A stretch of DNA of 64,000 nt from Streptosporangium album. Lineage in GTDB: Bacteria > Actinomycetota > Actinomycetes > Streptosporangiales > Streptosporangiaceae. Shown here in pieces: positions 5,257-53,237 of the stretch (its first letter is position 1; every line of letters starts with the position of its first letter). The notes under the pieces are model-generated. The model searched no databases and was not told the origin of the DNA. It worked only from the letters and a program-made list of their open reading frames with translations. The translations under genes were made by a program, and so were the position numbers. The DNA is taken from contig NZ_JACHJU010000004.1 in the NCBI RefSeq assembly GCF_014203795.1, positions 186,001 through 250,000 of the forward strand, in the 5' to 3' direction.

Positions 5257-6492
5257 GTGCTGGGTTCCTCAAAGGGTGTTGAGCTGAGCGGTGGCCAGCC
5301 ATCCTGATCAGGGGCATCGTGGATGACAGGGAGGTGGTGTCATCATGCCGAAACTGCTGCACGCTCGAGCGCCGCGAGACGGCGAGGAGGAACGCCAGAT
5401 CCGTAAACTCGCCGGTGCCCGGCACGCCCCGGCCGACTGGATCCAGCGCGCCCAGATCGTCGTGTTGAGCTGGGAGGAGATGCGCGGCCCGGCCATCGCC
5501 GCGATGCTGGGCTGTCATCCGGAGACCGTGCGCCGCCGGTTGCGCCGCTTCAACGCCGAAGGCATCGACGGGCTCGGTGACCGGCCCGGGCCCGGTCGCA
5601 GACCGCGGATCACCCAAGCCGAACGATCGCAGCTCATCGCGCTGGTCAAGACGACACCGCCCGGGCAGCTGCGCTGGGAGCCCTGGGGTGAGCTGGAGGC
5701 CGACGACGAGGATGGGCCGGCGGTGTGGACCCTGGATGCCCTCACCGCCGCCGCCCGTGAGCAGGGCATCGACATTCACCGTTCCCAGGTGCGCCGGATC
5801 CTTCTGAAAGAGGGGGTGAGATGGCGCCGCACCCGGTCCTGGACCACCAGCAAGGACCCGGACTTCGCCGCAAAAGAACGCAGGTCGTCGGCCTGTACAC
5901 CGACCCGCCGGACGGCGCGGTCGTCGTCTGCGCCGACGAGCTGGGGCCGGTGACCCCGCGTACCTTCGGCCCCGCGCCCGCCTGGTCCGCCGACGGCCAC
6001 CGGATCAAAGCGCCGCTGGAATACTTCCGCGGCCCCGACAAGACCTGGGTGTACGGTGCGCTGCGCGTCGCCGACGGCGCCGCGGTCACCATGACCGCCG
6101 CCTCCCGCAACAGCGACTGCTACCAGCGGTTCCTGCAACGACTCGAGGACGCCAACCCCGGCCACGGTGACATCTGGGTGATCGCCGACAACCTGTCCGG
6201 TCACAACAGCCTCGCCACCCGCACATGGCCGGCCGACCATCCCCGCATCCAGCACGCGTTCATCCCCGTCGGCGCCTGCCGGCTCAATCTGCAGGAGGCG
6301 TGGTGGCGGATCTTCCGCCACCATGCCCTGGCCGGAGTGTCCTTCGCTGATAGCAAGGACATCGACCACGCCACCCGCATCGCCACCGCCCAGCTCAACC
6401 AGCGGGCCAAACCCTGGGTCTGGGGACGGCCACCACCGGCCCCCAGACACCTACGCCGCCAGTTCGTCTACAGCCTTTGAGGAACGGAGCAC
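5257..6492 (+). mobile_element. IS630-family insertion sequence, complete
   Basis: Inverted ends GTGCTGGGTTCCTCAAAGG (5257) and GTGCTCCGTTCCTCAAAGG (reverse complement, 6474-6492) match at 17 of 19 positions. TA flanks both sides (5255-5256 and 6493-6494), the hallmark TA target duplication of IS630. The TA used lies inside the TAGT duplication of the IS701 element, so this insertion is younger. Confidence 0.88.
5345..6480 (+). CDS. IS630-family transposase made by -1 frameshifting
   Basis: Two overlapping frames encode one transposase. Frame A starts at 5345 (MPKLLHARAP) and holds the N-terminal helix-turn-helix (IAAMLGCHPETVRRRLRRFN). Frame B continues from about 5872 with VVGLYTDPPDGAVVVCADEL, whose D and E begin the DDE core; VIADNLSGHNS supplies the second acidic residue and LNLQEAWWRIF the last. 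At 5872-5875 the run AAAA allows lysine tRNA to slip back one base from the codon at 5873 to that at 5872, as known for IS3 and IS630 elements. The fused product is about 378 residues. A plain frameshift mutation is the alternative, but the A-run at the exact junction favours programmed slippage. Confidence 0.8.
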
Positions 6493-7375
6493 TAGTCGAC
6501 CGCCGACTGGGCGACCAGCGCCAGCAGGATCGGATAGCGGCGCTCCCCGCGCCGCTGAAGCCCCTGCACCGTCGACCGCCGCCCCAACGTCGCCAGGAAC
6601 CGGCGCCGCTCGGTCGGCAGCATCGACAGATCCAGACGGTGGGCGTCCATCCCGCGCAGATACCGCAGCTTGGCGATCGCGACCTTCACCGCCGCGGCCG
6701 TCGCCTCCACCGCCGGCGTCGTCAACCACGCCAGCCGGGTCATCCCCAGCTCCTCGTCGAACACCAGCAGCCGGTCCACATCCGCTCGTATCGGTCCGGT
6801 CAACAGATGATCGACCTTCTCCGATGTCAACGCCCCCGCCGCGTTACGCGCCGACCCGACCATCTTCATTAACACGACCGCACCGGGCCGGACCACCTTC
6901 GAGCTGATCAGATGCTCGGCCGCCTGGTGGAACAGCAGCGACGGCGTGTCGTGCTCCATCGCCCGGTCAAGAAAGAACTGCTCCAGCTCCTTCAGCGTCT
7001 CGCCCCTGGTGGGAACCGGTTTCCAGTCCAGGTACTTCAGCACCAGCCTCAAATGATCACTACGGGTCTGCGCCCGCCCCCCGTCCGGCTCCAGGGCTCC
7101 CGAAACACCGCCAGCTGGTTCGCCAGCCGCTGCACCGCCGCCTGCGGCACCGACCAGATGTCATCCGGCACGAACCCCAGCCACGGCAACGTGCACAGCT
7201 GCACCGCCAACCCCAAGCGCGCCGCCGAACCCCGGCCCCCGCCCCGACTCAAGTTGTCGATGAACCCCAGATCCTTCCGCGTCAACGTGAAAAACCTGAT
7301 CAACTCCTCCCTGCCGATGTCCGGATACGACCGCAGCCGCTCCATCTGCTCGTCGGAGAAGAACTGAACCGCCAA
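6493..7375 (-). pseudogene. Tn3-family transposase N-terminal fragment
   Basis: The minus strand reads MAVQFFSDEQMERLRSYPDI from 7375, the DUF4158 start of a Tn3 transposase. A frameshift near 7080 leads into LKYLDWKPVPTRGETLKELE and the reading continues to 6493, where IS630 and IS701 cut it. About 290 of some 1000 residues remain and no catalytic residues are present. It is homologous to the fragment at 19203-19730 and lies inside the unit bounded by GGGGTCCCGG ends. Confidence 0.85.
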
Positions 7376-7547: not shown

Positions 7548-8495
7548 TCATTTTCGAGTCCCTCGGGTCGAGCGCGGACTGACGATCAGTGCGTCGCGTT
7601 GTGCGGAGCTCAGGCGGTCCGGCCTCGGGGTGATGGCGTACGCGCCGCGCCCGACCTGCTCCATGGTGAGCGGGTCGGAGAGGATCGGACGACGGCTGAT
7701 CGCGTCCAGGGCGTCGGCCGCCCGCTGGATGGGCCAGTCCAGTGCCGTGGCGAGGTCGTCCACGGTAAGTGGCCGAGCGGCGTACACCAGCGCGGCCAGC
7801 ACTGTCAGCGCGTCGTGCACGACGGCGTCGGTGAGGCCGCTGTCGTTCATCTGCTCGCTGATCCAGGTGAAGAACTGAGCCATCTGGCCCAGCCGGGTGC
7901 CGGCGGGCGTGCCGACGCCGAAGATCTCGATCCCGTGCCGCGCGGCCGCCGCGACCTCGGCGTGTGCCCCGGTGTCGGCTTTGAACGCCCGGAGCCAGAC
8001 ATCGTCGTCGATGACGTACCGTTCGCGGCGGCCGGAATCCTGTGTGCGCCTGACCAGCTCGATCTCCTCGAGGTAGCCGATGGCCTTGGACACCGACGCC
8101 GGGCTGACCTGTAGCTGGCGTACGAGCTCGGCGGACGTCAGGCTCCCGGAGTCGGAGGCGAGCAGGCAGACGAACACGCGAGCGGGCATCCGGGGAAGGC
8201 CGGTCCCGACCAGCAGCGTCGCGAACTGCTCCACGAAACCGCGCACGGACTCGGCCGGCCGCCCGTCGGCTGGTGGCTCCGTGGCTTGAACTGGTCTGCG
8301 GCGGGCGCGCTGCCCGGCGGCCTGCTGGGCGCGGTCGGCCAGGTAGCCGCCGGGCGCGCTGTTGCGTGCCACTTCGCGGCTGATCGTGGATGTGGGCCTG
8401 CCCAGCCGCCGGGCGATCTCGGCGTATCCCAGCCCTTCGGCCAGCCAGATCGCGATCTGCCGGCGATCCTCGTGGGTCAGCCTGCCTCCGGGCAT
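7548..8495 (-). CDS. transcriptional regulator: IS30-like HTH plus MarR/GbsR-like domain
   Basis: The 315-residue product begins MPGGRLTHEDRRQIAIWLAE, an IS30/Hin-type helix-turn-helix (residues about 5-45, IARRLGRPTSTISREVARNS). A winged helix follows (about 95-160, SLTSAELVRQLQVSPASVSK) like GbsR/MarR regulators, then a C-terminal region with a second HTH-like stretch. The start at 8495 is preceded on the minus strand by AGGAGG, unlike the longer start at 8576. It is divergent from the serine hydrolase at 8717, with three TTGCAACG-like repeats between them, so it probably controls that gene and itself. Confidence 0.8.
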   Translation of the reverse strand: MPGGRLTHEDRRQIAIWLAEGLGYAEIARRLGRPTSTISREVARNSAPGGYLADRAQQAAGQRARRRPVQATEPPADGRPAESVRGFVEQFATLLVGTGLPRMPARVFVCLLASDSGSLTSAELVRQLQVSPASVSKAIGYLEEIELVRRTQDSGRRERYVIDDDVWLRAFKADTGAHAEVAAAARHGIEIFGVGTPAGTRLGQMAQFFTWISEQMNDSGLTDAVVHDALTVLAALVYAARPLTVDDLATALDWPIQRAADALDAISRRPILSDPLTMEQVGRGAYAITPRPDRLSSAQRDALIVSPRSTRGTRK

Positions 8496-24909: not shown

Positions 24910-25053
24910 GCTACCCTTCGGGATCCCGCGTTCGCCCGCCAGCGTCCATTACAAAGAGATCATTTAGCGAAGATCGTTGGATGTGAACCCGACACAGCGT
25001 TACGACGCCCCCAAAGCGGACGTTTGCCAGCCGAAGTCGGTCTCAGACCACCA

Positions 25054-25167
25054 ACCCGAAGCCAGCCGCGCCGGCGCCGGTTCGCCACCATCCGACGCAA
25101 CCACCAGGCCGAGCAGCGGCGGCAGTGGTTCCCCAAGCTGTTCCCGGCAACCCGCCACTTCAAATGA
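25054..25167 (+). pseudogene. C-terminal relic of a tniQ gene
   Basis: One frame ends HQAEQRRQWFPKLFPATRHFK and a stop at 25167. The intact TniQ at 32588-33610 ends HQAEQRRQWVPKPFPEKGHFR, so this is the tail of a second, related tniQ. Only some 37 residues remain. No matching right end follows it. Confidence 0.75.
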
Positions 25168-25288
25168 GAAACAGGGTGTCTTGGCTCAGTCCTTCGGCGG
25201 CATCACGGGAAGTCGGTCTACTTCATCTACGGTCAGGCTGTCGACGCGCCTCACCGGTGACGCACTACGGCCCGGTTACCGTGACCGG

Positions 25289-26395
25289 ATGACGCCGATT
25301 TTCGAGCTTTGTGATGGGTATGTCGGGAAGTCGACCACGCTCGACCCGATCAGCGCGGAGATCCGCGGAGTCGCCGGCGGCTTCGTCGCGGCCACCGACT
25401 ACAGCCCAGATGGCCATGCCGCCCGAGCCGAGCTGATCCACCGCACCCTGGCCGAGCTCGCTGGGCTGCGCGTGACCTCCGAGGCCGACCGGCACGCCGC
25501 CGAGCATCTACGGAAACGTCTGGAGGCCGAGTCGGCCTGGCACGCGAGCGGGGAACCACTGCGCATGCTGCGCGGCCAGTTCGGACTGCTCAACCTCATC
25601 CGCGACAGCGTTGACCTGCTCCCACGCAGTGACGACGATCAGTGGCGCAATGTCGCCGCCCGCCTGGCGGCCGTGCCGGTGATGCTGGTGAGCTGGTGCA
25701 CGAGCCTCGACCTCGGCCTGGAGAAAGGGCTGACGGCGGCCCGGCGACAGGCGTTGGAGTCTGCCGCCCAGGCAGAGCGTTTCGCCGGGGTTCACGACGC
25801 TCTGGTGACTTCCTACGGCGACGGCCGGCTGGCCGGTGAACTTGCCCGGGCGGCGGCCTTGGCGCACATGGCCTACACCGAGACGGCCCGCTACCTGCGT
25901 CAGGATTACGTGCCCCGGGCGGCGGAGCAGGACGGGGTCGGCGCCGAACGCTATGCCGTGGCCGCCCGGCAGAGTCTCGGCGCCGACATCGACCTGGCCG
26001 AGGCCTACGCGTGGGGCTGGGCCGAGCTGGGCAGGATCGAGGCGGAGATAGCCGACGAGGTTGAGCGCGTCCGCCCCGGTGCGAGCTGGGAGAAGGTGAG
26101 CGCGCTCCTCGACCAGAGCCACTGCGTGGTCGGCGCGGACGCCTACCGGGCATGGCTGCAGGAACGGCACGACCAGGCCGGCGAACTACACGGCACGCAC
26201 TTCGACATCGCCGATTCGCTGCGCACGCTCCAGGTGGCCATCGCTCCCGCCTCGGCCTCCGGGTCTCCCTACTACACTCCGCCGACCGAAGACCTGTGTG
26301 AGGTCGCAGCCGGAGTGGCGAGTTCTCAAGAGATCTGGCGGAGCCAGTGGCGAAGAGGTGTCGGTTCTCATCTGATGTGGCGAGCATCGGATTGA
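25289..26395 (+). pseudogene. DUF885-like protein, 3' truncated
   Basis: From ATG 25289 (MTPIFELCDGYVGKSTTLDP) the product resembles DUF885 proteins (predicted metalloprotease-like, helical), with RQDYVPRAAEQDGVGAERYA and AYAWGWAELGRIEAEI. Near 26297 the family sequence (SGSPYYTPPTEDL) breaks off and unrelated sequence carries on to a stop at 26395. Full-length relatives are near 550 residues and bear the C-terminal HExxH-type region, which is missing, so the protein is likely inactive. The break coincides with a sequence resembling the Tn7-like left end. Confidence 0.7.
26297..26395 (+). repeat. possible diverged Tn7-like left end
   Basis: It opens TGTGAGGTCGC, against TGTCAGGTCGC at 26535, and contains GATCTGGC and GATGTGGC boxes like those in the intact left ends. 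It interrupts the DUF885 gene. The similarity is partial. Confidence 0.45.
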
Positions 26396-26534
26396 GGACC
26401 GACAGCTTCCCACGCTGCTGAAGAACAGGCAGCAATCGGTTCCTCAACCAGGCCGAACCTGCCCTGCCACCGAATCAATACGAAGATCAACGCTCTACCG
26501 CTGATCTCCGCACCGGTCCTCCCCAGAGGCCTAT

Positions 26535-26736
26535 TGTCAGGTCGCCGTTGATCTGGCCGATTCCGCGGCGATGTGGCCAAGTAGGTGGCCAGTTCGGGGA
26601 GATGTGGCCAGGATGATGATCGGGTGAGCGGCGTGTTCACTGGATGTGGTCGAACGGTTTCGAGGCGACGTACGTCGGCGTGGATGGCGTTGAGCGCCGG
26701 GTCATGAACAGCGGCCAGATCAATCCGGAACTGACA
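26535..26736 (+). repeat. mini-element: left end joined to right end (internal deletion derivative)
   Basis: This 202-bp piece starts with a left end (TGTCAGGTCGCC, several TGGCC boxes), keeps a degenerate first part of tnsA, then ends in a right end (GGCCAGATCAATCCGGAACT then GACA). It aligns with 28450-28612 at the left and 33672-33697 at the right. Confidence 0.75.
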
Positions 26737-26822
26737 GTTTGAGCCGGATGGCTCCTTCGCGGTCGATCCGGTCGAGCGATTGGCCCGCACTCCACCGCGG
26801 CAGTCGGCCCCGCGCATTGTTA

Positions 26823-26838
26823 GGATACGACTGTATCC
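26823..26838. promoter_or_regulatory. palindromic operator of the hydrolase/TetR operon
   Basis: GGATAC-GACT-GTATCC, with perfect 6-bp arms, stands 20 nt before the hydrolase ATG. It is a typical TetR-type operator, presumably bound by the downstream TetR protein. Confidence 0.65.
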
Positions 26839-26858
26839 ATTCGGGAGATGAGGTCACC

Positions 26859-27779
26859 ATGCGCATGCCTGACCGGCCGTCCGCCTTCACCAGCGACTCC
26901 GCCCGTGACAAGTACCACGCCGTCTATGACCGAGTGCTCGGCGAGCTGTGGCCGGTGCCGGTGGACGCCCTCGACGTCGAGACCCGCACAGGCAGCGTGC
27001 GGATCCACCGGGCCGGGCCCGCCGAGGGGGATCCCGTGGTGCTCCTGGCCGGTGCCGGCGGGAACGCGCTGGCCTGGTACCGCTACATCGAGCCGCTGGC
27101 GCGCACGCGCCCGGTTTTCGCCGTCGACCCGCTCGGCGAGCCCGGCCGCTCGGTTCAGAGGCGGCCGCTCGCGACCGGTGCCGAGGTCGGCGGCTGGGTC
27201 ACCGACGTCCTGGCCGCGGTCGGAGCCGAGCGCGCGCACGTGGCGGGTTTCTCCGCCGGCGGCTGGGCCGCGGTGGAACAGCAACTCGGCGGGGGCGGCC
27301 GGGTCGCGGCGCTGACGCTGGTGGACCCGGGCGGCTTCGCGCCGTTGCCCAGGCGGTTCATCCGCTGGGCCCTCGCCGGCGCCATCGCCTCCATGCTTCC
27401 TCGTACGTTGCGACACCGCATGGCCGACGTAGTGGACAACGGGGTGCTGCGCGAGGATGGGCTGGTGGAGCTGATGCGGGCCGGCTGGTCCTTCCGCCGA
27501 CGTGTGCCCATCCCGCCCGCCTACACCGACGAGCAGATACGCGAGGTGTCCGTGCCCGTGCAGGTGCTGCTGGGCGCCCGCAGCGCACTGCTCGACGCGC
27601 GGGCGCTGGCCGCGCGGCTGGCCGACATCGCACCGTCCTGGCGGGTGGAGATCGTGCCCGGCACCGGACATTCGCTGCCCGTCGAAGCTCCGGACTTGGT
27701 CGCCGAGCGGATCCTCACCTTTCCCAGCCAGGCGCGGCCCAGGAGCACACCTCCGAAGCACGGCACGAACAACAGGTAG
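26859..27779 (+). CDS. alpha/beta hydrolase
   Basis: A 306-residue alpha/beta-fold hydrolase. The nucleophile elbow is G-F-S-A-G-G (VAGFSAGGWAAVEQQLG), the oxyanion region is LLAGAGGNALAWYRY, and the catalytic histidine lies in PGTGHSLPVEAPDLVAERI. Substrates of such enzymes are esters, lactones or amides; none can be named. ATG 26859 follows GGGAGATGAGG. It heads a two-gene operon with the TetR gene 9 nt downstream, both carried as cargo between internal Tn7-like ends. Confidence 0.85.
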   Translation: MRMPDRPSAFTSDSARDKYHAVYDRVLGELWPVPVDALDVETRTGSVRIHRAGPAEGDPVVLLAGAGGNALAWYRYIEPLARTRPVFAVDPLGEPGRSVQRRPLATGAEVGGWVTDVLAAVGAERAHVAGFSAGGWAAVEQQLGGGGRVAALTLVDPGGFAPLPRRFIRWALAGAIASMLPRTLRHRMADVVDNGVLREDGLVELMRAGWSFRRRVPIPPAYTDEQIREVSVPVQVLLGARSALLDARALAARLADIAPSWRVEIVPGTGHSLPVEAPDLVAERILTFPSQARPRSTPPKHGTNNR

Positions 27780-27788
27780 GAAACGGGC

Positions 27789-28394
27789 ATGCCCCGACAG
27801 GTGGATCATGATGAGCGGCGGCGCCAGTTGACCGAGGCGCTGCTGCGCATCGCCAGCACCCGCGGCCTGCAGGCGGTGTCGATGCGTGAGATCGCCGCCG
27901 AGGCCGGGGTCTCACTGCGCGTCGTCCAGTACTACTTCACGAACAAGCAGGCCCTGCTTGAGTCCGGCCTCACCGAGCTGGGTGCCCGCATGGACCGCCG
28001 GGTCAAGCAGCGGGCCGCCGCCATGGGCGAGCTGACACCACGAGGCGTTTTCGCCGCCGTCCTCGGCACGATCCTGCCCTTCGATGAGCAGAGCACACTG
28101 GACTCTATGGCCTGGACCGCCTACTACACCGCCGCCCTCACCGACCCGGCGCTCGCCGCGGTCGGGCTCACCCTGCCCAACGCACTGGAAAACTTCCTCA
28201 CCGTACGGTTGACCGCCGCACAGCAGGCCGGGGACATCGCCCCCGATCGTGACCCGCGTACCGAAGTCGCCGGCCTTCTGGCTCTCGCCAACGGCCTGAC
28301 CTCCAGCGTCCTCAGTCAACAGCGTAGCCACGAGGCCGCCACCAAAATCATCGACTACCACCTGGACCGCCTGTTCGGACCGGCGATCTCTTGA
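27789..28394 (+). CDS. TetR-family regulator
   Basis: A 201-residue repressor. [27 protein letters not shown] is the helix-turn-helix (about residues 28-54), and the C-terminal TetR_C domain follows the RutR/BetI-like pattern ([19 protein letters not shown]). It is the second gene of the hydrolase operon, 9 nt after its stop, and likely binds the GGATAC/GTATCC operator upstream of both, giving feedback control. Confidence 0.87.
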
Positions 28395-28449
28395 TCCACG
28401 GCACCTCTGATCAGGGAAAATTCTGCTCGTTTGGGGCTGGCGGCACGTT

Positions 28450-28535
28450 TGTCAGGTCATCGTTGATGTGGCCGATTCCAAGGAGATCTGGCCAAGTAGG
28501 TGGCCAGTCCGCGGAGATGTGGCCACGATGACTAA
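28450..28535 (+). repeat. left transposon end next to tnsA
   Basis: Starts TGTCAGGTCATCGTTGATGT and holds three or four TGGCC-type boxes (GATGTGGCC, GATCTGGCC, GGTGGCC, GATGTGGCC), candidate TnsB binding sites. The flank before it (ACGTT) does not match the flank at 33698, so it is not the outer end of the present insertion. Confidence 0.7.
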
Positions 28536-29285
28536 GTGAGTGCGGATTCGCTGGATGTGGCCAGCAGGTTCGATGTGGCCTATGTGGATGCGGACGGCGT
28601 CGAACGGTCGGTGAAGCTGGAGGAGCTGAGCCGGGTGAAGCTGGAGGCGGCTCGTCCGGTCCGGTCGTTTCCGTCATACGCGGGGCAGCGGAACTATCCG
28701 GGCTGGTACTGGTCGGCAACGATGGGCCGCCTGGTTGGGTTCGAGTCGTGGGTTGAGCGGGACCACCTGATCGCGATCGACTTCGATCCTGTGGTGACAG
28801 CGGTTGCGTCACAGCCGTTTTGGCTGCGATGGAGCGTCGATGGCCGACTACGCAGACATGCTCCTGATTTCTTCGTCCGGGTGGCCGGGGGCGGGGTGCT
28901 GGTGCTGGACTCACGGCCGCTGGACCGGATCGGTGAGAGTGACCGGGAGGCGTTCCAGGCCACGCAGCAGGCGTGTGACCTGCTGGGATGGCGGTATGCG
29001 GTGTGGGGCACGATGAATGGGGTGGTGGTGGCCAACCAGCGGTGGTTGGCGGGTTACCGGCATCCGCGGTGCATGGATGAGGCGGTCGCGGCCCAGTTGC
29101 GTGAGGTGTTCGCCCAACCGCTTGCCCTGATGGACGGGGCCGAGCTGGTCGGGGATCCGATCGCGACGCTGCCGGTGCTGTTTCACCTGATGTGGCGGCA
29201 CGAGCTGGAGGCGGATCTGTCTTTGGTGCTCAGCGACCGCAGCATCGTGAAGACGGCCATGGGGGCAGGGGGCCGTCGTGGTTGA
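28536..29285 (+). CDS. tnsA: TnsA-like endonuclease
   Basis: A 249-residue endonuclease that would cut the 5' ends of the transposon, allowing cut-and-paste rather than copy-in movement. The restriction-like core shows E70 in GFESWVERDHL, then IDFDPVV, D111 in RRHAPDFFVR, and VLVLDSRP, where the canonical QxK is replaced by S-R, as seen in many actinobacterial relatives. The GTG start at 28536 lies just inside the left end. It overlaps tnsB by 8 nt; all four genes are coupled. Confidence 0.88.
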   Translation: MSADSLDVASRFDVAYVDADGVERSVKLEELSRVKLEAARPVRSFPSYAGQRNYPGWYWSATMGRLVGFESWVERDHLIAIDFDPVVTAVASQPFWLRWSVDGRLRRHAPDFFVRVAGGGVLVLDSRPLDRIGESDREAFQATQQACDLLGWRYAVWGTMNGVVVANQRWLAGYRHPRCMDEAVAAQLREVFAQPLALMDGAELVGDPIATLPVLFHLMWRHELEADLSLVLSDRSIVKTAMGAGGRRG

Positions 29286-31482
29286 CCGGCCGGTGCTGCG
29301 CATCGGCGACCGGGTGCGGTTCGAGGGCGCCGAGCACCAGGTGGTGGCATTGTCCGGCAACGCGGTGCGGTTGTTGTCGACGGCGAACGAGGCCAGTGTG
29401 GTGCTGGCGCCGTATCTGCAGGCTGCGCCGGACTTCGCCGTCTTGGGCGGGGGAGATCAGGGCGACGGGCGCGTGGCGCGGGTGCCGCCGCTGGGGTTGT
29501 TGGCCACCTTGCCAGAACAGGTGCTGACGGCTGCCCGGGAATGGGAGCGGCATCTGGTGGAGGTGGAGACCGGGCTCCCGCTGGGCGCACCCGAGGGAAC
29601 ACAGCCTCGTCCGGAGTACGACCCGGTGCTGCATTCTCTGGTCGAGCGGGAGCGCGCCAAGGCAGAGGAGTTGTGCAGGGCGGGGACGAAGGCGAGTGTC
29701 CGGACGGTCCGGCGGATGCGTGCTCGCTACCGTGATCAGGGGTTATGGGGGCTGGTCGACACCCGATACGCACGGCGGGCCAAGCCGACCGGGAACGTGG
29801 ATGCCCGTGTGGTCGAGGCCGCGGCCCGGGTGATCGACGCGCAGACCAGCACGTCGACGGGCACCAAGGGCAGGGTGATCAGCCAGATCAAGCAGGGTCT
29901 GGAAGAGGAGTATGGGCCCGGGACAGTGCCATTGCCGGGGAAGACGACCTTTTACAAGCTGGTGGATGTGCTGGCGGCAGGGAAGCACACTTTCGGGTCG
30001 GCGACCACCCGCCGCCAGATGGCCAACCGCCCTGAGGGCGCGTTTACCGCGACCACCGCGTCCCGGCCCGGCGAGCAGGTCCAGATGGATGGCACTTTGC
30101 TGGATGTGATGGCGGTGATGGACGATGGGGTGATCGGCCGTCCCGAACTGGTCGCCGCGGTTGATGTCGCCACCCGGACCATCTGCGCTGCGGTGTTACG
30201 CCCGGTCGGTGCGAAGGCGGTGGACGCGGCGTTGCTCCTGGCGCGGATGATGACGCCGGAGCCGATGCGGCCCGGCTGGGATGAAGCGCTGGCGATGAAG
30301 GCCTCCAGGATCCCGCATCAGCGGCTGGTGAGCATCGACACGCGGCTGGAGTTGGCGGCGGCCAAGCCGGTCATAGCGGCTGACACCGTGGTGATTGACC
30401 ACGGCAGGGTGTTCGTGTCGGAGGTGTTTCTACGTGCCTGCGACACCCTCGGCATCTCGGTGCAGCCCGCCCATCAGCAGACCGGCACCGACAAGGCGAT
30501 CATGGAGCGGACGTTCGAGTCGATCAACACCCTGTTCTGCCAGCACGTGGCCGGCTACACCGGCCGGGATGTCACCCACCGCGGCGCCGATGTCGATGAG
30601 CGAGCGGTGTGGTCACTACCTGACCTGCAGGAACAGCTGGACGAGTGGGTTGTTGCCGGGTGGCAGTCGCGACCGCATGAAGGCTTGCGCCACCCATTCA
30701 CCCCTGACCAGCCCGCCTCCCCCAACGACGCATACGCTGCCCTGGTCACGGCTGCGGGCTACATCCCGATCGCGTTGTCGGGTGAGGACTACATCGAGTT
30801 GCTGCCGGCGGAGTGGCGGGCGATTGGGGATGGCGGAGTGCAGATCAACTACCGCACCTATACCTGCCCCGAGCTGCGCGCCTACAGCCACTACCCGTCG
30901 CCGATCACGGCCAAGGGCGGTCGGTGGGAGGTTCATTACGACCCTTACGACGTCACCCGGGTCTGGATTCGCAACCACTACCGGGGCGGGTGGATCATGG
31001 CGCCGTGGCGTCACGCGTCCCTGGTGGCGCAGCCCTTCGCCGACTTCACCTGGAGGCACGCCCGCAAGATCGCCGCGCAGCGCGGGGTAGACGCCACCAA
31101 CGAGACCGCCGTCGCGGTGGTGCTGGCCGCGTTGCTGCGGCGGGCTGGGCAGGGCCCCGATCCGACTGAGCGGGCCTTGGCTCGCACCCGGGCCGCCGCG
31201 GCGGTCCGCAATCACCTGCCGCCTGACCTGCTGCCCACGCTCACGGCCAGCACCATCGCGGCCGATGAGATCACTGAGCAGGCCGATGCGGAATCCGTAA
31301 CAACCGCAGAGTCATCGGTCGCTGGACACCCTGCCAACCAGAAGGCCCGGCGAGCGCGGGCAGCCCAGATGACCGATCGAGACGCCGACGAAAGCGACGA
31401 GGACGAGCCGTTACAGGGCACGGTCGTCGGATTCGGACTCTTCGATCCCTTCGCTGACGACCAGGAGGGCCTGGCCCGGTGA
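29278..31482 (+). CDS. tnsB: TnsB-like DDE transposase (Mu/integrase catalytic region)
   Basis: A 734-residue transposase that binds the end repeats and joins 3' ends. The catalytic triad is D271 (EQVQMDGTLLDV), D374 (VVIDHGRVFV) and E410 (TDKAIMERTFESIN). N-terminal HTH domains around 120-230 (TVRRMRARYRDQGLWGLVDT) bind DNA, and the Mu C-terminal beta-barrel follows (INYRTYTCPELRAY). The acidic tail would contact TnsC. The GTG start overlaps tnsA, and the stop overlaps tnsC. All catalytic residues are intact. Confidence 0.92.
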   Translation: MVDRPVLRIGDRVRFEGAEHQVVALSGNAVRLLSTANEASVVLAPYLQAAPDFAVLGGGDQGDGRVARVPPLGLLATLPEQVLTAAREWERHLVEVETGLPLGAPEGTQPRPEYDPVLHSLVERERAKAEELCRAGTKASVRTVRRMRARYRDQGLWGLVDTRYARRAKPTGNVDARVVEAAARVIDAQTSTSTGTKGRVISQIKQGLEEEYGPGTVPLPGKTTFYKLVDVLAAGKHTFGSATTRRQMANRPEGAFTATTASRPGEQVQMDGTLLDVMAVMDDGVIGRPELVAAVDVATRTICAAVLRPVGAKAVDAALLLARMMTPEPMRPGWDEALAMKASRIPHQRLVSIDTRLELAAAKPVIAADTVVIDHGRVFVSEVFLRACDTLGISVQPAHQQTGTDKAIMERTFESINTLFCQHVAGYTGRDVTHRGADVDERAVWSLPDLQEQLDEWVVAGWQSRPHEGLRHPFTPDQPASPNDAYAALVTAAGYIPIALSGEDYIELLPAEWRAIGDGGVQINYRTYTCPELRAYSHYPSPITAKGGRWEVHYDPYDVTRVWIRNHYRGGWIMAPWRHASLVAQPFADFTWRHARKIAAQRGVDATNETAVAVVLAALLRRAGQGPDPTERALARTRAAAAVRNHLPPDLLPTLTASTIAADEITEQADAESVTTAESSVAGHPANQKARRARAAQMTDRDADESDEDEPLQGTVVGFGLFDPFADDQEGLAR

Positions 31483-32591
31483 GCAGCGACTACCAGCCAC
31501 CGGAGAGATCGCCGGTGACGCAGCCGGAGATGGAGATCTTCGACGACCTGGGCCAGCACTCGCTGGCGACCAGGGAGGGCTTCACCGCATTCACCTCCCA
31601 GGGCATCATCGAGCCGCCCGAGCTGCTGTCGGCCGCTGACCTGATCGCGTTGACCGACCCTGAGCTGGATATCTACAACGACGTCCGGCAGCGGTTCCAC
31701 AGTCAACTGCTGCTGGTCGCCACCCCCGACATCATGCGAGTCACAGCGGTCGGACAGAAACTGATCCGCAACAACCGCGGCAAGCAGCTCGGCCGCAAGG
31801 GGCTGGCGGTGGTGGGCGCCGCCGGCACCGGCAAGTCGACCTGCATCACCCAGCTCGGCAAGAAGCACCAGATCGACCAGCAGCGTCGTGCTCCCGGCTT
31901 GCAGGGCCGGATTCCAGTGGCCTACATCGTCGCCCCGCACGAGGCCACTCCGGTCAAACTGTCGCTGGAGCTGGCGGCCTTCCTCGGCTTGCCGGTGAAC
32001 CGGTGGGACGGCGAGCCCTACATCACCCGCGCCGTGGTGTCGGTGCTGCGCAAGGTCGGCTGCGGCCTGGTCCTGGTTGATGAGATCCAGCGAGTGGAGC
32101 TGGGCACCGCCGACGGCGCCAAGGCCGCCGACTACCTGAAATACCTGTTCGACAGCATCCCGGCCACCTTCGTGTTCGCGGGCACCCCCGACCTGACCCT
32201 GTTCGACGGGCCCCGCGGACAGCAGTTCGCCAGCCGATTCAAGACCATCACCACCACCGCGTTCGGCTACGGCCTCAAGGCCCACCGCGAACTCTGGGAC
32301 AAACTGGTGGTGAGCATGGAAGAACCCCTCCGGTTGCACAAGCATCGCCCCGGGATGCTTTTAGAACACGCCCACTACCTGCACAGCCGCACCGGTGGCA
32401 TGATCGGCAGCCTGGACCAGCTCATCCATGACGCCGCCAACGACGCCATCGCCGACGGCACCGAGAAGATCACCAAGAAGCATCTGGACGAGGTGCTGTT
32501 GGACACCACCGCTGAACAACAGTATTCCCCTGTCCCGCACCCGCGCCCCGCCACCGCTGGCATGGCCGCCCGGCGAAGGGGCCGGCCATGA
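31479..32591 (+). CDS. tnsC: TnsC/TniB-like AAA ATPase
   Basis: A 370-residue regulator linking target choice to transposase. Walker A is at 113-121 (GAAGTGKST) and Walker B at 197-202 (LVLVDEIQ); a sensor-like segment FVFAGTPDLTLF follows. The N-terminal region contacts TnsB and the C-terminal region TniQ in the family. The GTG start overlaps the tnsB stop by 4 nt. No lesion is visible. Confidence 0.9.
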   Translation: MSSDYQPPERSPVTQPEMEIFDDLGQHSLATREGFTAFTSQGIIEPPELLSAADLIALTDPELDIYNDVRQRFHSQLLLVATPDIMRVTAVGQKLIRNNRGKQLGRKGLAVVGAAGTGKSTCITQLGKKHQIDQQRRAPGLQGRIPVAYIVAPHEATPVKLSLELAAFLGLPVNRWDGEPYITRAVVSVLRKVGCGLVLVDEIQRVELGTADGAKAADYLKYLFDSIPATFVFAGTPDLTLFDGPRGQQFASRFKTITTTAFGYGLKAHRELWDKLVVSMEEPLRLHKHRPGMLLEHAHYLHSRTGGMIGSLDQLIHDAANDAIADGTEKITKKHLDEVLLDTTAEQQYSPVPHPRPATAGMAARRRGRP

Positions 32592-33610
32592 AACTCTGGC
32601 AGGCGCCGGCCCGGACGCTCCCGATTACCATCCGTCCGATCGGTGGCGAGACCATCCCCTCCTACGCCCGCCGCCTGGCCGAGGCCAACGACCTGTATTC
32701 CACAGCCATCTTGCGCGCGATCGGTGAACACCGTTACGGCACTGGCCGCCACCTGTTCCGTCATGATGCCTGTCTCAACGACCAGGCCGCCGACCGGCTG
32801 GCCGTCTTCGCCGGGATGCCCCGCGACCGCCTTCGCCGTGCCCTTCCCGCTCTCAGTCAGGGTCTGCCCGCTTACCAAAAGCCTCTGCCGATGGACCGTC
32901 CGGCCGTCTACACCTATACCCCGATCCCCAACCCTCGGCTCGCCTGCCACCACTGCCAGATCCGCAACGCCGTCAACCCAAACCCGCCCACCGTGCTGGT
33001 TCGCACCACCGATCCACGATCACCGCTGATTTGCTACCGTCACCGTCGCTGGCTGGGCAACTTGGCCGACACCACCCAGTACGACCTGCGCCATGCCGAC
33101 GAAATCATCACGGCAGAACGACGCTACCAGCGGCTCCTCGCCGGTCGTCGTGACACAGGGTGGGTCAGCGACCTCCTGATCACTGCATGGAACATCACCC
33201 AAGCCTGGGCCACGCACCCGCCCATCCGACTCCCCACTGTTGTCAAGTGGTGGCGAGCCCGAGCCGTCGCCTTAGGCATTCCCGACGCGCCCCGACAGCC
33301 CATCGTGACTTTTCCTGAAGCCGTCACGCTCACCGAGATTCTCACCAACTTGGACTGGAGACAGCACGTCGCTATGGCCGAGGACTACGACCTCGGACGC
33401 TTCTACCAGCACATCGCTCGCAGCCTGGGAGAAACCCACCCACAAAGTGCACAGGCCACACGCCGGATCATTTGGGGACAACGTGATGCGCTCACCTACT
33501 GGGTCGCCGCCCATCGTCACCGGTTCCGTGACCTCCGCCTGCGGCATCAAGCCGAGCAACGTCGACAGTGGGTTCCCAAGCCTTTTCCAGAAAAGGGCCA
33601 CTTCAGATGA
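32588..33610 (+). CDS. tniQ: TniQ-family target selector
   Basis: A 340-residue protein. It begins LPITIRPIGGETIPSYARRL, the TniQ signature, and has a zinc site C120-x-x-C123 (CHHC) with C149-x-x-H152 (CYRHRRW). TniQ proteins couple TnsC to a target-site DNA-binding protein; here it is longer than the ~300-residue small TniQ and shorter than TnsD, so the target rule is unknown. The ATG overlaps the tnsC stop (ATGA). It lies 87 bp from the right end. Confidence 0.9.
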   Translation: MKLWQAPARTLPITIRPIGGETIPSYARRLAEANDLYSTAILRAIGEHRYGTGRHLFRHDACLNDQAADRLAVFAGMPRDRLRRALPALSQGLPAYQKPLPMDRPAVYTYTPIPNPRLACHHCQIRNAVNPNPPTVLVRTTDPRSPLICYRHRRWLGNLADTTQYDLRHADEIITAERRYQRLLAGRRDTGWVSDLLITAWNITQAWATHPPIRLPTVVKWWRARAVALGIPDAPRQPIVTFPEAVTLTEILTNLDWRQHVAMAEDYDLGRFYQHIARSLGETHPQSAQATRRIIWGQRDALTYWVAAHRHRFRDLRLRHQAEQRRQWVPKPFPEKGHFR

Positions 33611-33697
33611 ACAGCTCGCCCTCCAATCCGTTCAGCGAGAACTGGCCAACAGCAGGTCAGAGGCGTTAACGATGGCCAGATCCATCTGGAACTGACA
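33611..33697 (+). repeat. right transposon end
   Basis: Contains AACTGGCCAACAG and GATGGCCAGATCCATCTGGA then ACTGACA. The last 26 bases match the internal right-type end at 26711-26736 at all but a few positions. The CCTAT duplication follows at 33698. Confidence 0.85.
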
Positions 33698-33791
33698 CCT
33701 ATCCGTCGGCGAGGGCGGGATAGAGCGTGCGTACCCGGGAGGCGTCAAAGCCCACAATCCATCATGATTCGGGCGGGAGCCCAAGGAAGGG

Positions 33792-50810: not shown

Positions 50811-53237
50811 TCAGGACGCAGGCGGGGGGAACAGGCCGGGCAGGTGCCGGTTCATGTCGAGCTCGAAGCGGCCGTACAGGTTCAGGTGGGTCCAGAACAG
50901 CGCGGACAGGCCGCGCCGGTCGGCGGCAGTGAGCCGCTTGTTCCAGGCGGGGTCGCGTAGGACGAGCTGGACCAGGTGGGTGTTGAGGTAGACGATGGTG
51001 GCCGCGACCAGGTGCAGGGCGAGGGCGGAGACCTCCACGTGTTCGCGGTCGTCGCCGGTCAGGTCGCCGGCCTTGCCGTAGAAAATGTCCTTGCTGGCGG
51101 AGTTCCAGTTCTCCACCACGTTCAGGCCTTCGTGGATCTCCCGTCGGAGTTCTTCGTCGGCGAGGTAGTCGCAGATGAAGATGGTGCGGATGACACGGCC
51201 GAGTTCTTCGATGGCCTGGTAGGTGGGGTGCTTGGGGCCGCTGCGGGCGAACCGGCGCAGCATCTGGTGGGACTCGGCGGTACGCAGCCGCAGCGCGGTG
51301 GCGTACTTGATCATCTGGTCGTAGTGCCGGGCGATCAGGTCCCAATCGATCGTCTTGTTCGACGGCATCTCATCCAGCCCCGGCCACGCCTCATCTTCGC
51401 CGGTCCCGGGCCGGTACAGCCGCGCGGAGCCGATGTTCTTCAACCGGGGCAGGAGCTGGAAGCCCAGCGGGTGGGAGAAGGCGAGCCCGACGATCGAGGC
51501 GCCGTGGGTGTCGGTGTACTGCCGGTCGATCCCACAGGCTGGCGTCGCGGACCTTCAGCGTCTCATTCACCACGGTGCGGATCGCCGCACGCAGGTTGTT
51601 GCGGTTGATGAACAACCGGCGGGTGCGCCGCAGCGCCGCCTCGTTATCGACTTCATCACCGTCGGCGACGCGCTTGATGCCCACGTTGGTGCCCAGCCCA
51701 TACAGGCACAACAGCAGCCGGCGCTGCAACACGGCCGCATCGGTCACGGTGCGGGAGGCGACCGAGGTGAAGTCCGCCGTGAAGCCGGTGACGTGGTCGA
51801 CGTCCTTGGGCACGTCCAGCAGGTCGATCACACCCCAGCGGCGGGAGATCTCCTCCTTCAGCGCTTTGAGCCTGGCCGGTTCGGGCTGCTTGGTGACCGG
51901 CGGGACGGCGATCCACGGCTCGCCCTTCTTACGAGTGATCCGCACGCCGCCGGTGGTGCCTTTCCGAAGGGCCTTGTTCAGCCGGTTCAGCGCGGCCACG
52001 TGGCGTTTCTGCAGGTCGGCGACGAACTCGGCCGGGTCCCTCGGCTTGGACGGCGCCTGGTAGTGCACGTCCTGGTTGTCTTCGAAGTCTGGCGGCAGGT
52101 CGGCGTCGGGGTTGCGCCAGACCTTGCTGCCCTCCACCCAGATCTCCCGTCGGCGGATCGCCTGGCGCAGCGCGACCAGCACGCACAGCTCGTACGGGAT
52201 CCGCTCGATCCGGCCGGTGTCCGGATCGACGACTGCGTCCCGCCAGTCCTCGGGCACCACGTGCTCGATCGGCACCTGCTCGGCCGCGTCGTAGAACACC
52301 GCCTCGGAGTCGGCGTAGCGGTCCAGCAGCGCCAGGGCGTCCATCACCGGCCGGAACGCGGTGCTGGAAGAACCGAAGGTGACCGCGCGCAGCAGCTTGG
52401 GCAGACCCCGCCGGTAGTGCCTCGAGTAGGAGCCGCGCAGCTCGGCGTTGATCTCGTTTTCGACCTTCTTCTCGGCCCGCACGCTGATCTTGTGCACCAG
52501 CTGAATCAGCAGATCGACCAAGCCGTCGATCATCTCGGTCTTACGCACCCAGCACAAAGCGGCCAGCAGCGTCAGCCGTACCGGGGCCTGGGCGGCGGCG
52601 AAGTCCGAGAGATACATTTTCATCGCCCGGGCCCGCCAGCCCTCCACGACTTTCTCCGACACCCCCTCGAACAACCCTTCGGCAGACCGGTCGCCTTGAC
52701 CCGCTCCAGCTTGACGATCTCGGCCAGCAGCGTCTCCAGCTGCAGTGGCCCCGGATCCTCCTTCAGCTCCTGCAGGAAACTTCGCATCCCGCCGGATCCA
52801 CCGTCGGGATCGGGGTCATCGACCGCGATCAGCTCCTCCAGCTTCACCACCGCCTCCGCCGACAGTCGGTCGAGCGTGCGCATGGTGAACTGCCGCTCGA
52901 ACATCGCCTCGGCCGCACCCAGCAACCGCTCGATCGGCGCCGGCCGGGGCGGCTCGATCCTCTCCTCCCGGCACCGCGCCAGCAGCGCCGCCCGCAGCCG
53001 GTCCCGCGACATCTTCAGCGGGCAGATCTCGGCGGCGAGCCAGAAGACCAGCTTGTCCTCATCGGCGACCGTCGGCACGTCCTCCCACCGCGGGAACCGC
53101 GCCTCCAGCTCGAAGAACTTCAACAGCAGGGCGAACCCCAGCCGCGTCGCCCCGGACGTGTTCGCCAGCAGCTCCCGCTCCGCCTCATCCAGCGTCCAGC
53201 GCTCAATGAGGTCTTCCAGCTCCCACTCCCGCCGCAT
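50811..53237 (-). pseudogene. Tn3-family transposase, frameshifted and deleted
   Basis: Three readable pieces on the minus strand make one transposase. 53237-52680 starts MRREWELEDLIERWTLDEAE and shows an internal deletion of about 50 residues (FPRWEDVPTVADEDKLVFWL). A shift near 52678 leads into LFEGVSEKVVEGWRARAMKM and GLPKLLRAVTFGSSSTAFRP. Another shift near 51536 gives [20 protein letters not shown], whose D is a catalytic residue, then [20 protein letters not shown] to FPPPAS at 50811. No flanking GGGGTCCC ends were seen. It is unrelated in detail to the other Tn3 relics. Confidence 0.88.

Follow-up and report, generated by a model that had tools for sequence, protein, structure and literature searches.

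A probable composite transposon with Tn7-like ends from two sublineages in Streptosporangium album

Introduction

When four ends of one transposon family lie in a row, it has to be asked which of them delimit the mobile unit and how the genes between them became cargo. This question is raised by a stretch of 64,000 nucleotides in the genome of Streptosporangium album (9.02 Mb, 14 contigs), namely G000:C4:186001-250000, which is referred to here as the window and from whose first letter all positions are counted. A sequence-only reading of the window had described a Tn7-like transposon with nested ends, in which an internally deleted copy seemed to have given a new left end and a hydrolase/TetR gene pair to have been caught between two ends. 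The ends, the genes and the insertion site of this element were compared with those of its relatives, and the explanations for its layout are weighed below.

Methods

From a scan with a TnsB alignment, the best 80 of at least 337 confirmed loci were kept. Altogether 87 loci were examined, and 33 had an adequately scoring end pair with a duplication. After one duplicate (L134, the same as L175) and two doubtful loci (L183 and L201) were dropped, 30 delimited relatives were available for comparison.

Results

Ends, target duplication and genes of the element

The Tn7-like family ends in the window are located at 26535 and 28450 (left-type, L) and at 26736 and 33697 (right-type, R), exactly where the sequence-only reading had placed them (Table 1). 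Both L tips read TGTCAGGTC and form a direct repeat of 83 nt with 88% identity, and both R tips read GAACTGACA, with 24 nt alike at 92%. A matching 5-bp duplication, CCTAT, is present only on the outermost tip pair, which delimits a unit of 7163 bp; the flanks of the inner tips, GTTTG and ACGTT, do not match, as had also been noted from the sequence. With the base composition of the window, the chance of a single 5-bp match is approximately 0.0018 per pair, and with three possible L-R pairings the probability that CCTAT arose by chance is therefore below 1%. The arrangement is that of a composite: two related elements flank cargo, and the matching duplication stands on the outermost tips only.

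Table 1. Positions of the features of the element and its insertion site in the window
Feature	Position	Strand	Basis
Tn3-family terminal repeat and leader, relic without transposase gene	26434..26531	-	82% over 94 bp to G011 DNA before DUF4158 gene
Left target-duplication copy CCTAT	26530..26534		sequence
202-bp miniature: outer L (26535-26696) joined to short inner R (26713-26736)	26535..26736	+	end alignment
GTTTG, flank of inner R tip, putative half of old target duplication	26737..26741		sequence; meaning inferred
16-bp palindrome GGATACGACTGTATCC before hydrolase gene, probable TetR operator	26823..26838		conserved at cassette border in relatives; role inferred
Alpha/beta hydrolase (cargo)	26859..27779	+	Pfam Abhydrolase_6 1.5e-16
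TetR-family regulator (cargo)	27789..28394	+	Pfam TetR_N 3.2e-11, TetR_C_6 2.8e-12
ACGTT, flank of inner L tip, putative half of old target duplication	28445..28449		sequence; meaning inferred
Inner L end, tip used by same element in G012	28450..28606	+	comparison with G012
tnsA-like	28536..29285	+	NCBIfam NF033179 TnsA_like_Actin 1e-90; no Pfam match
tnsB-like transposase	29278..31482	+	Pfam Mu-transpos_C 2.2e-7, weak rve; D271, D374, E410
tnsC/tniB ATPase	31479..32591	+	Pfam TniB 2.4e-16, AAA_22 9.4e-16
tniQ target selector	32588..33610	+	Pfam TniQ 1.7e-4, under curated cut-off
Outer R end	33603..33697	+	95-bp stretch common with G007, 95%; cores 20, 50, 98
Right target-duplication copy CCTAT	33698..33702		sequence

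TGGCC cores occur at positions 20, 40, 52 and 71 of both L ends, so that the four-core array is the same although the intervening sequence differs. Cores at 20, 40 and 52 are present in all five compared L ends with an intact tip. The core at 71 is found in both window ends and is altered in G127 and G251; the L stretch of G007 that was compared is too short to reach this position. The outer R end has cores at 20, 50 and 98, and the inner R end, compared over its first 60 bp, has a core at 20 but lacks the one at 50. A single core is weak evidence of a poor end, because only one exact core is present within the first 100 bp of the R end of the G007 element described below, though that element did move.

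According to the reading-frame list and Pfam, six genes lie between the outer tips, namely four tns genes, the hydrolase gene and the TetR gene, and no resolvase was found among them. The four tns genes (28536-33610) overlap by a few bases, and by profile matches the operon of the 28450-33697 unit is apparently intact, in agreement with the sequence-only reading. In TnsB, D271, D374 and E410 are invariant in eight aligned relatives and are the putative DDE residues. E70, E74, D111, D125 and R127 of TnsA are invariant in 17 of 17 aligned proteins. The TnsA of Tn7 has a lysine where R127 stands in the TnsA-like proteins here; D-x-R is present in all 17 aligned members of the TnsA-like group. The TniQ profile is matched with 22.7 bits, below its cut-off of 27, and the position of the gene and its relatives fit tniQ. 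With its TnsA-type gene, a TnsB carrying the Mu-C domain, a TniB ATPase, the 5-bp duplication and the end repeat arrays, the element is Tn7-like.

Origin of the two left ends

A copy in a congener (G012) shows that the inner L end is real, since 3040 bp at 98.0% identity start there exactly at the base matching 28450 and lie beside other DNA. TnsA and TnsB are present in this copy; no match to TnsC or TniQ was found in the 19-kb stretch, and no right end was found in the fetched stretch. As the 28450 end is complete, the autonomous unit of 28450-33697 may still be able to move by itself.

The outer L end is only distantly similar to this resident end (77% over 162 bp). A closer match, 92% over 77 bp, is provided by the L end of the G127:C1 satellite from another genus, which is 84% identical to the resident L. 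Judged by these comparisons, the outer L end is part of a 202-bp deleted element from another, diverged sublineage. The earlier proposal is thus retained in so far as a miniature supplied the new left end, and abandoned in so far as the miniature was taken for a copy of the resident element. No further match was obtained when the own genome was searched with the 202-bp element.

Distribution of the cargo genes

Of 340 other genomes of the family, with two candidates scored in each, 27 contain the hydrolase/TetR stretch at almost its full length, and in all 27 the match does not reach as far as the transposon ends. The occurrence of the pair without these ends is in line with the view that it was captured between them. 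In five congeners the pair is present at 86-96%. The borders of the cassette differ among the 11 distinct genomes compared, so that the cargo behaves as a roaming gene pair, and neither satellite nor element was found at these borders. A donor with satellite, cargo and element was not found in the congeners or in the 340 family genomes.

Other nested elements, satellites and neighbouring ends

A second nested element, G007:C44:10379-8351 (minus strand), is 2029 bp in length and has GCCGA at both outermost tips. Its order is L (65 bp, 97%), cargo, inner L (151 bp, 93%) and R (95 bp, 95%). The inner L has the tip TTTCAGG and has partly lost its cores, and no TnsB match was found in the fetched stretch. 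The outer L, consisting of 65 bp without an adjoining R, may be of different origin. The cargo was also considered to contain a piece of a Tn3 transposase, and this candidate was rejected as Pfam gave no match.

Satellites with one gene between a simple L and a simple R were found in G127:C1 (1252 bp, duplication AGCGT) and G251:C168 (1147 bp, duplication GTGGC). Read from the sequence, their genes are putatively dienelactone-hydrolase-like and maleylpyruvate-isomerase-like, respectively. G009/G241 have 1495 bp in common from the L tip, yet no R end was found, and they were rejected as a satellite. In Actinoallomurus purpureus (L175), only 9 bp separate a satellite of 257 bp (duplication CCGGG) from a full element (duplication GGTTG); both point in the same direction and have an end type that differs from that of the window.

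By blastn, a second left end between L and tnsA was found in none of the 30 delimited relatives, and L212 gave a weak partial match. The nested case of G007 and the two single-gene satellites suggest a recurring process, though none of the 30 others is nested. Another family end lies within 16 bp in four of the 30 (L143, L175, L190 and L197); for L143, the putative neighbouring tip was placed by how far it lies from tnsA, and a right end to match it was not found. At 8146-8152 of L190, the duplication AGTGA comes after the right tip, and a further left end of the family begins immediately behind it. Two Tns gene sets stand side by side, in the same or opposite direction, in L143, L173, L183, L194 and L197.

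Insertion site and targeting

The DNA at 26442-26534 is 82% alike to the DNA preceding a DUF4158 gene in G011, and DUF4158 is taken here to mark Tn3-family transposases. In G011 and G045, the outer 36-41 bp of this Tn3-like DNA have an inverted partner copy approximately 6 kb off, which identifies them as a terminal repeat with its outermost base at 26531 +/-1; a relic in G080 has no good inverted partner copy. Since the terminal repeat ends at 26531, CCTAT takes in two tip bases together with three that lie beyond them, and the insertion is situated approximately 3 bp outside a Tn3-family tip. The same is observed in a distant relative, L140 (G127:C11; TnsB 51% identical), where CCTGG (8098-8102) likewise joins three outside bases to the first two bases of a Tn3-family tip. 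The tip base of L140 is the commonest start in the order-wide match list, and a piece of a DUF4158 gene follows; no second Tn3 tip was found in that genome. In the window the Tn3 tip is turned towards the L end, in L140 towards the R end, and no flank motif is shared by eight L flanks of the window's end type, so this geometry is a lead and not a rule. If a Tn3 element had landed later beside a Tn7-like end, two bases would be shared by chance with an estimated probability of approximately 0.1 per case. Tn3 neighbours are not general, because tblastn with Tn3 pieces gave a match in only three of the 87 loci (L140, L149 and L185). Against plasmids, the left flank had no match and the L140 tip just a short unrelated match in five records.

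Among the flanks of the 30 relatives and the window, the three clusters of at least three loci represent lon (three loci) and, in the other two cases, parts of adjacent Tns operons. At equal distance from the L tip, at least 13 of 14 bases are alike in only one pair, L147/L150, and in no pair of R-side flanks. A single attachment gene for the whole family was therefore rejected, as these comparisons gave no common gene. The sequence-only reading had regarded the target rule as unknown; the left flank can now be named as a Tn3-family terminal repeat, and neither a common flank motif nor a common gene was found. In both L147 and L150, GTTTTTGAACTGAC occurs at offset 34 from the L tip and is a possible attachment motif. 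Three loci of another branch (L157, L167 and L175) are located on the 5' side of lon genes, approximately 100 bp from the lon reading frame in L157 and L167, with the satellite intervening in L175.

No empty site was found with the right flank in 16 genomes of the genus, with the left flank in 200 genomes of the family or with the joined flanks as a query against five loci. The right flank is kept in seven congeners from 33721 or approximately 33790 onward, with 95-97% identity over the main stretch in four of these; to the left of it all seven have other DNA, so these do not represent an empty site.

Several other traces of mobile DNA were observed in the window. The stretch at 26310-26400 contains TGGCGAG-type repeats and, at 26359, a tip-like TGTCGGTTCTCATCTGATGTGGCGAG; it has a partial match in G201:C144 (L131) and resembles a relic end from a further Tn7-like element. 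To the left of this relic end, a DUF885 gene (24977-26395) matches approximately the first two thirds of the profile only. Reading frames at 6492-7375 and 50811-53237, named by eye, resemble further pieces of Tn3-family transposases.

Discussion

We consider the unit between the outermost tips to be a composite Tn7-like transposon, moved by pairing of the satellite L end with the autonomous R end, with a probability of approximately 0.75. A satellite of 202 bp, with L and R and no genes, and an autonomous TnsABC-TniQ element in the same orientation would once have flanked the hydrolase/TetR pair. TnsB would have bound the L of the satellite and the R of the autonomous element, where TnsA and TnsB would have cut. 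The 7163-bp segment would then have been inserted as a single unit at a site picked by TnsC and TniQ, with duplication of CCTAT, and the two inner tips would have been carried along, each with half of an old duplication (GTTTG for R and ACGTT for L). Movement as a unit is deduced from the outer duplication, and the donor layout, the biochemistry and any present activity of the composite are presumed.

The duplication on the outermost pair only counts for this reading, as do the start of the G012 copy at 28450, the foreign outer L with the same core array and the presence of the cargo elsewhere. The nested case of G007, the gene satellites of G127 and G251 and the close neighbours of L175 also count for it. 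Against it stand the lack of an empty site and of a donor, the absence of nesting in all 30 delimited relatives and the missing right end of the G012 copy. On balance, the composite interpretation given from the sequence is supported by the apparently intact operon, the outer-only duplication and the cargo captured between ends.

Neighbouring family ends, as in the four relatives mentioned above, count in favor of an alternative in which the miniature and the autonomous element inserted independently beside the hydrolase/TetR pair at this site, with CCTAT being a coincidence. However, each insertion would then need its own duplication, yet CCTAT/GTTTG and ACGTT/CCTAT are unmatched, and the outer match has the low chance probability given above; independent insertions are thus improbable. 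A circular or plasmid copy of the cargo and the autonomous element could instead have recombined with a resident miniature through the R ends, so that the order L-R-cargo-L-R would have arisen although the unit as a whole had not transposed. Both R ends are alike over 24 bp, and the product would keep the outer duplication of the resident element, but the common stretch is short, and the inner flanks should match as the duplication of the incoming element. Such homologous integration is disfavored because GTTTG and ACGTT differ, and we regard it as very unlikely.

In a further alternative, 26535 would be the native left end of the element, its left-side cargo would be of the ordinary kind, and the inner tips would have come later by rearrangement or insertion. 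More than 0.5 kb separates the L end from tnsA in nine of the 30 delimited relatives (for example L147, L176 and L178), which is consistent with such an explanation. This is contradicted by the origin of the outer L in another sublineage, by the 28450 end, which leads into tnsA without a break and serves as the tip in G012, and by the right-type tip 202 bp after the start of the outer L. An own left end at 26535 is accordingly held to be highly improbable.

For the composite transposon, one consequence is that boundaries called from the end nearest tnsA can be wrong. A wider, tentative possibility, which we doubt more than we favor, is that actinobacterial Tn7-like elements keep end-only and single-gene satellites and tend to land beside other transposon tips, both of their own kind and approximately 3 bp outside Tn3-family repeats, so that pairing of ends across copies makes the intervening DNA cargo. 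Landing beside other transposon tips would then lead to accumulating clusters of compatible ends, and the capture of genes would follow as a matter of course from family targeting and loose end pairing. If the Tn3-tip geometry holds, it would represent a new target class for TniQ-guided transposition.

Several known systems share parts of this layout. The res-site hunters of the Tn5053/Tn402 type have relatives of TniB and TniQ, a 5-bp duplication and an attraction to Tn3-family DNA, lack TnsA and possess their own resolvase. In contrast, the window element has a TnsA-like gene and no resolvase among its six genes, which places it outside this type, and the Tn3 feature struck is the terminal repeat and not res. 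Mobile insertion cassettes, known from insertion-sequence families, consist of ends around a passenger gene without transposase, and the G127 and G251 satellites are alike in being ends around a passenger gene with no transposase.

The closest family is that of the actinobacterial Tn7-like transposons, probably clade 2 in the scheme of Benler et al. 2021 (PMC8649781), with which the element has in common the TnsA/TnsB/TnsC/TniQ genes, the end repeat arrays and the 5-bp duplication, whereas its cargo lies between a borrowed and its own left end. As far as the available part of that study describes it, the Actinobacteria-dominated clade is experimentally uncharacterised, and cargo is gained via nested insertion sequences. 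With a spare end supplied by a crippled relative from the family itself, a neighbouring gene could become cargo in a single step; the accessible literature attributes the cargo of Tn7-like elements to the insertion of other mobile elements. Tn7706 from Rhodococcus erythropolis (PMC12915292) is likewise actinobacterial and has tnsA, tnsB, tniB and tniQ; it contains 19 genes, and nested ends are not mentioned in the available part of its description. The words 'composite' and 'miniature' are absent from the main text of Faure 2023 (PMC10293859), as far as it is available, and no description of a composite built from Tn7-like ends was found in the open-licence literature.

The closest precedent, judged by the accessible parts of the reports, is provided by the TIME-COMPs (PMC4133298, PMC13367494), composites of Tn3-derived miniature elements that follow the same principle: miniatures at the ends mobilise the intervening DNA, and the 5-bp duplication stands on the outer tips only. 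They differ in their transposase family and in having two miniatures, whereas here one miniature is combined with an autonomous element of another sublineage, and the window miniature bears ends of the Tn7-like family and not Tn3-derived ones. The element described here is thus also a composite transposon, but one of Tn7-like ends from two sublineages.
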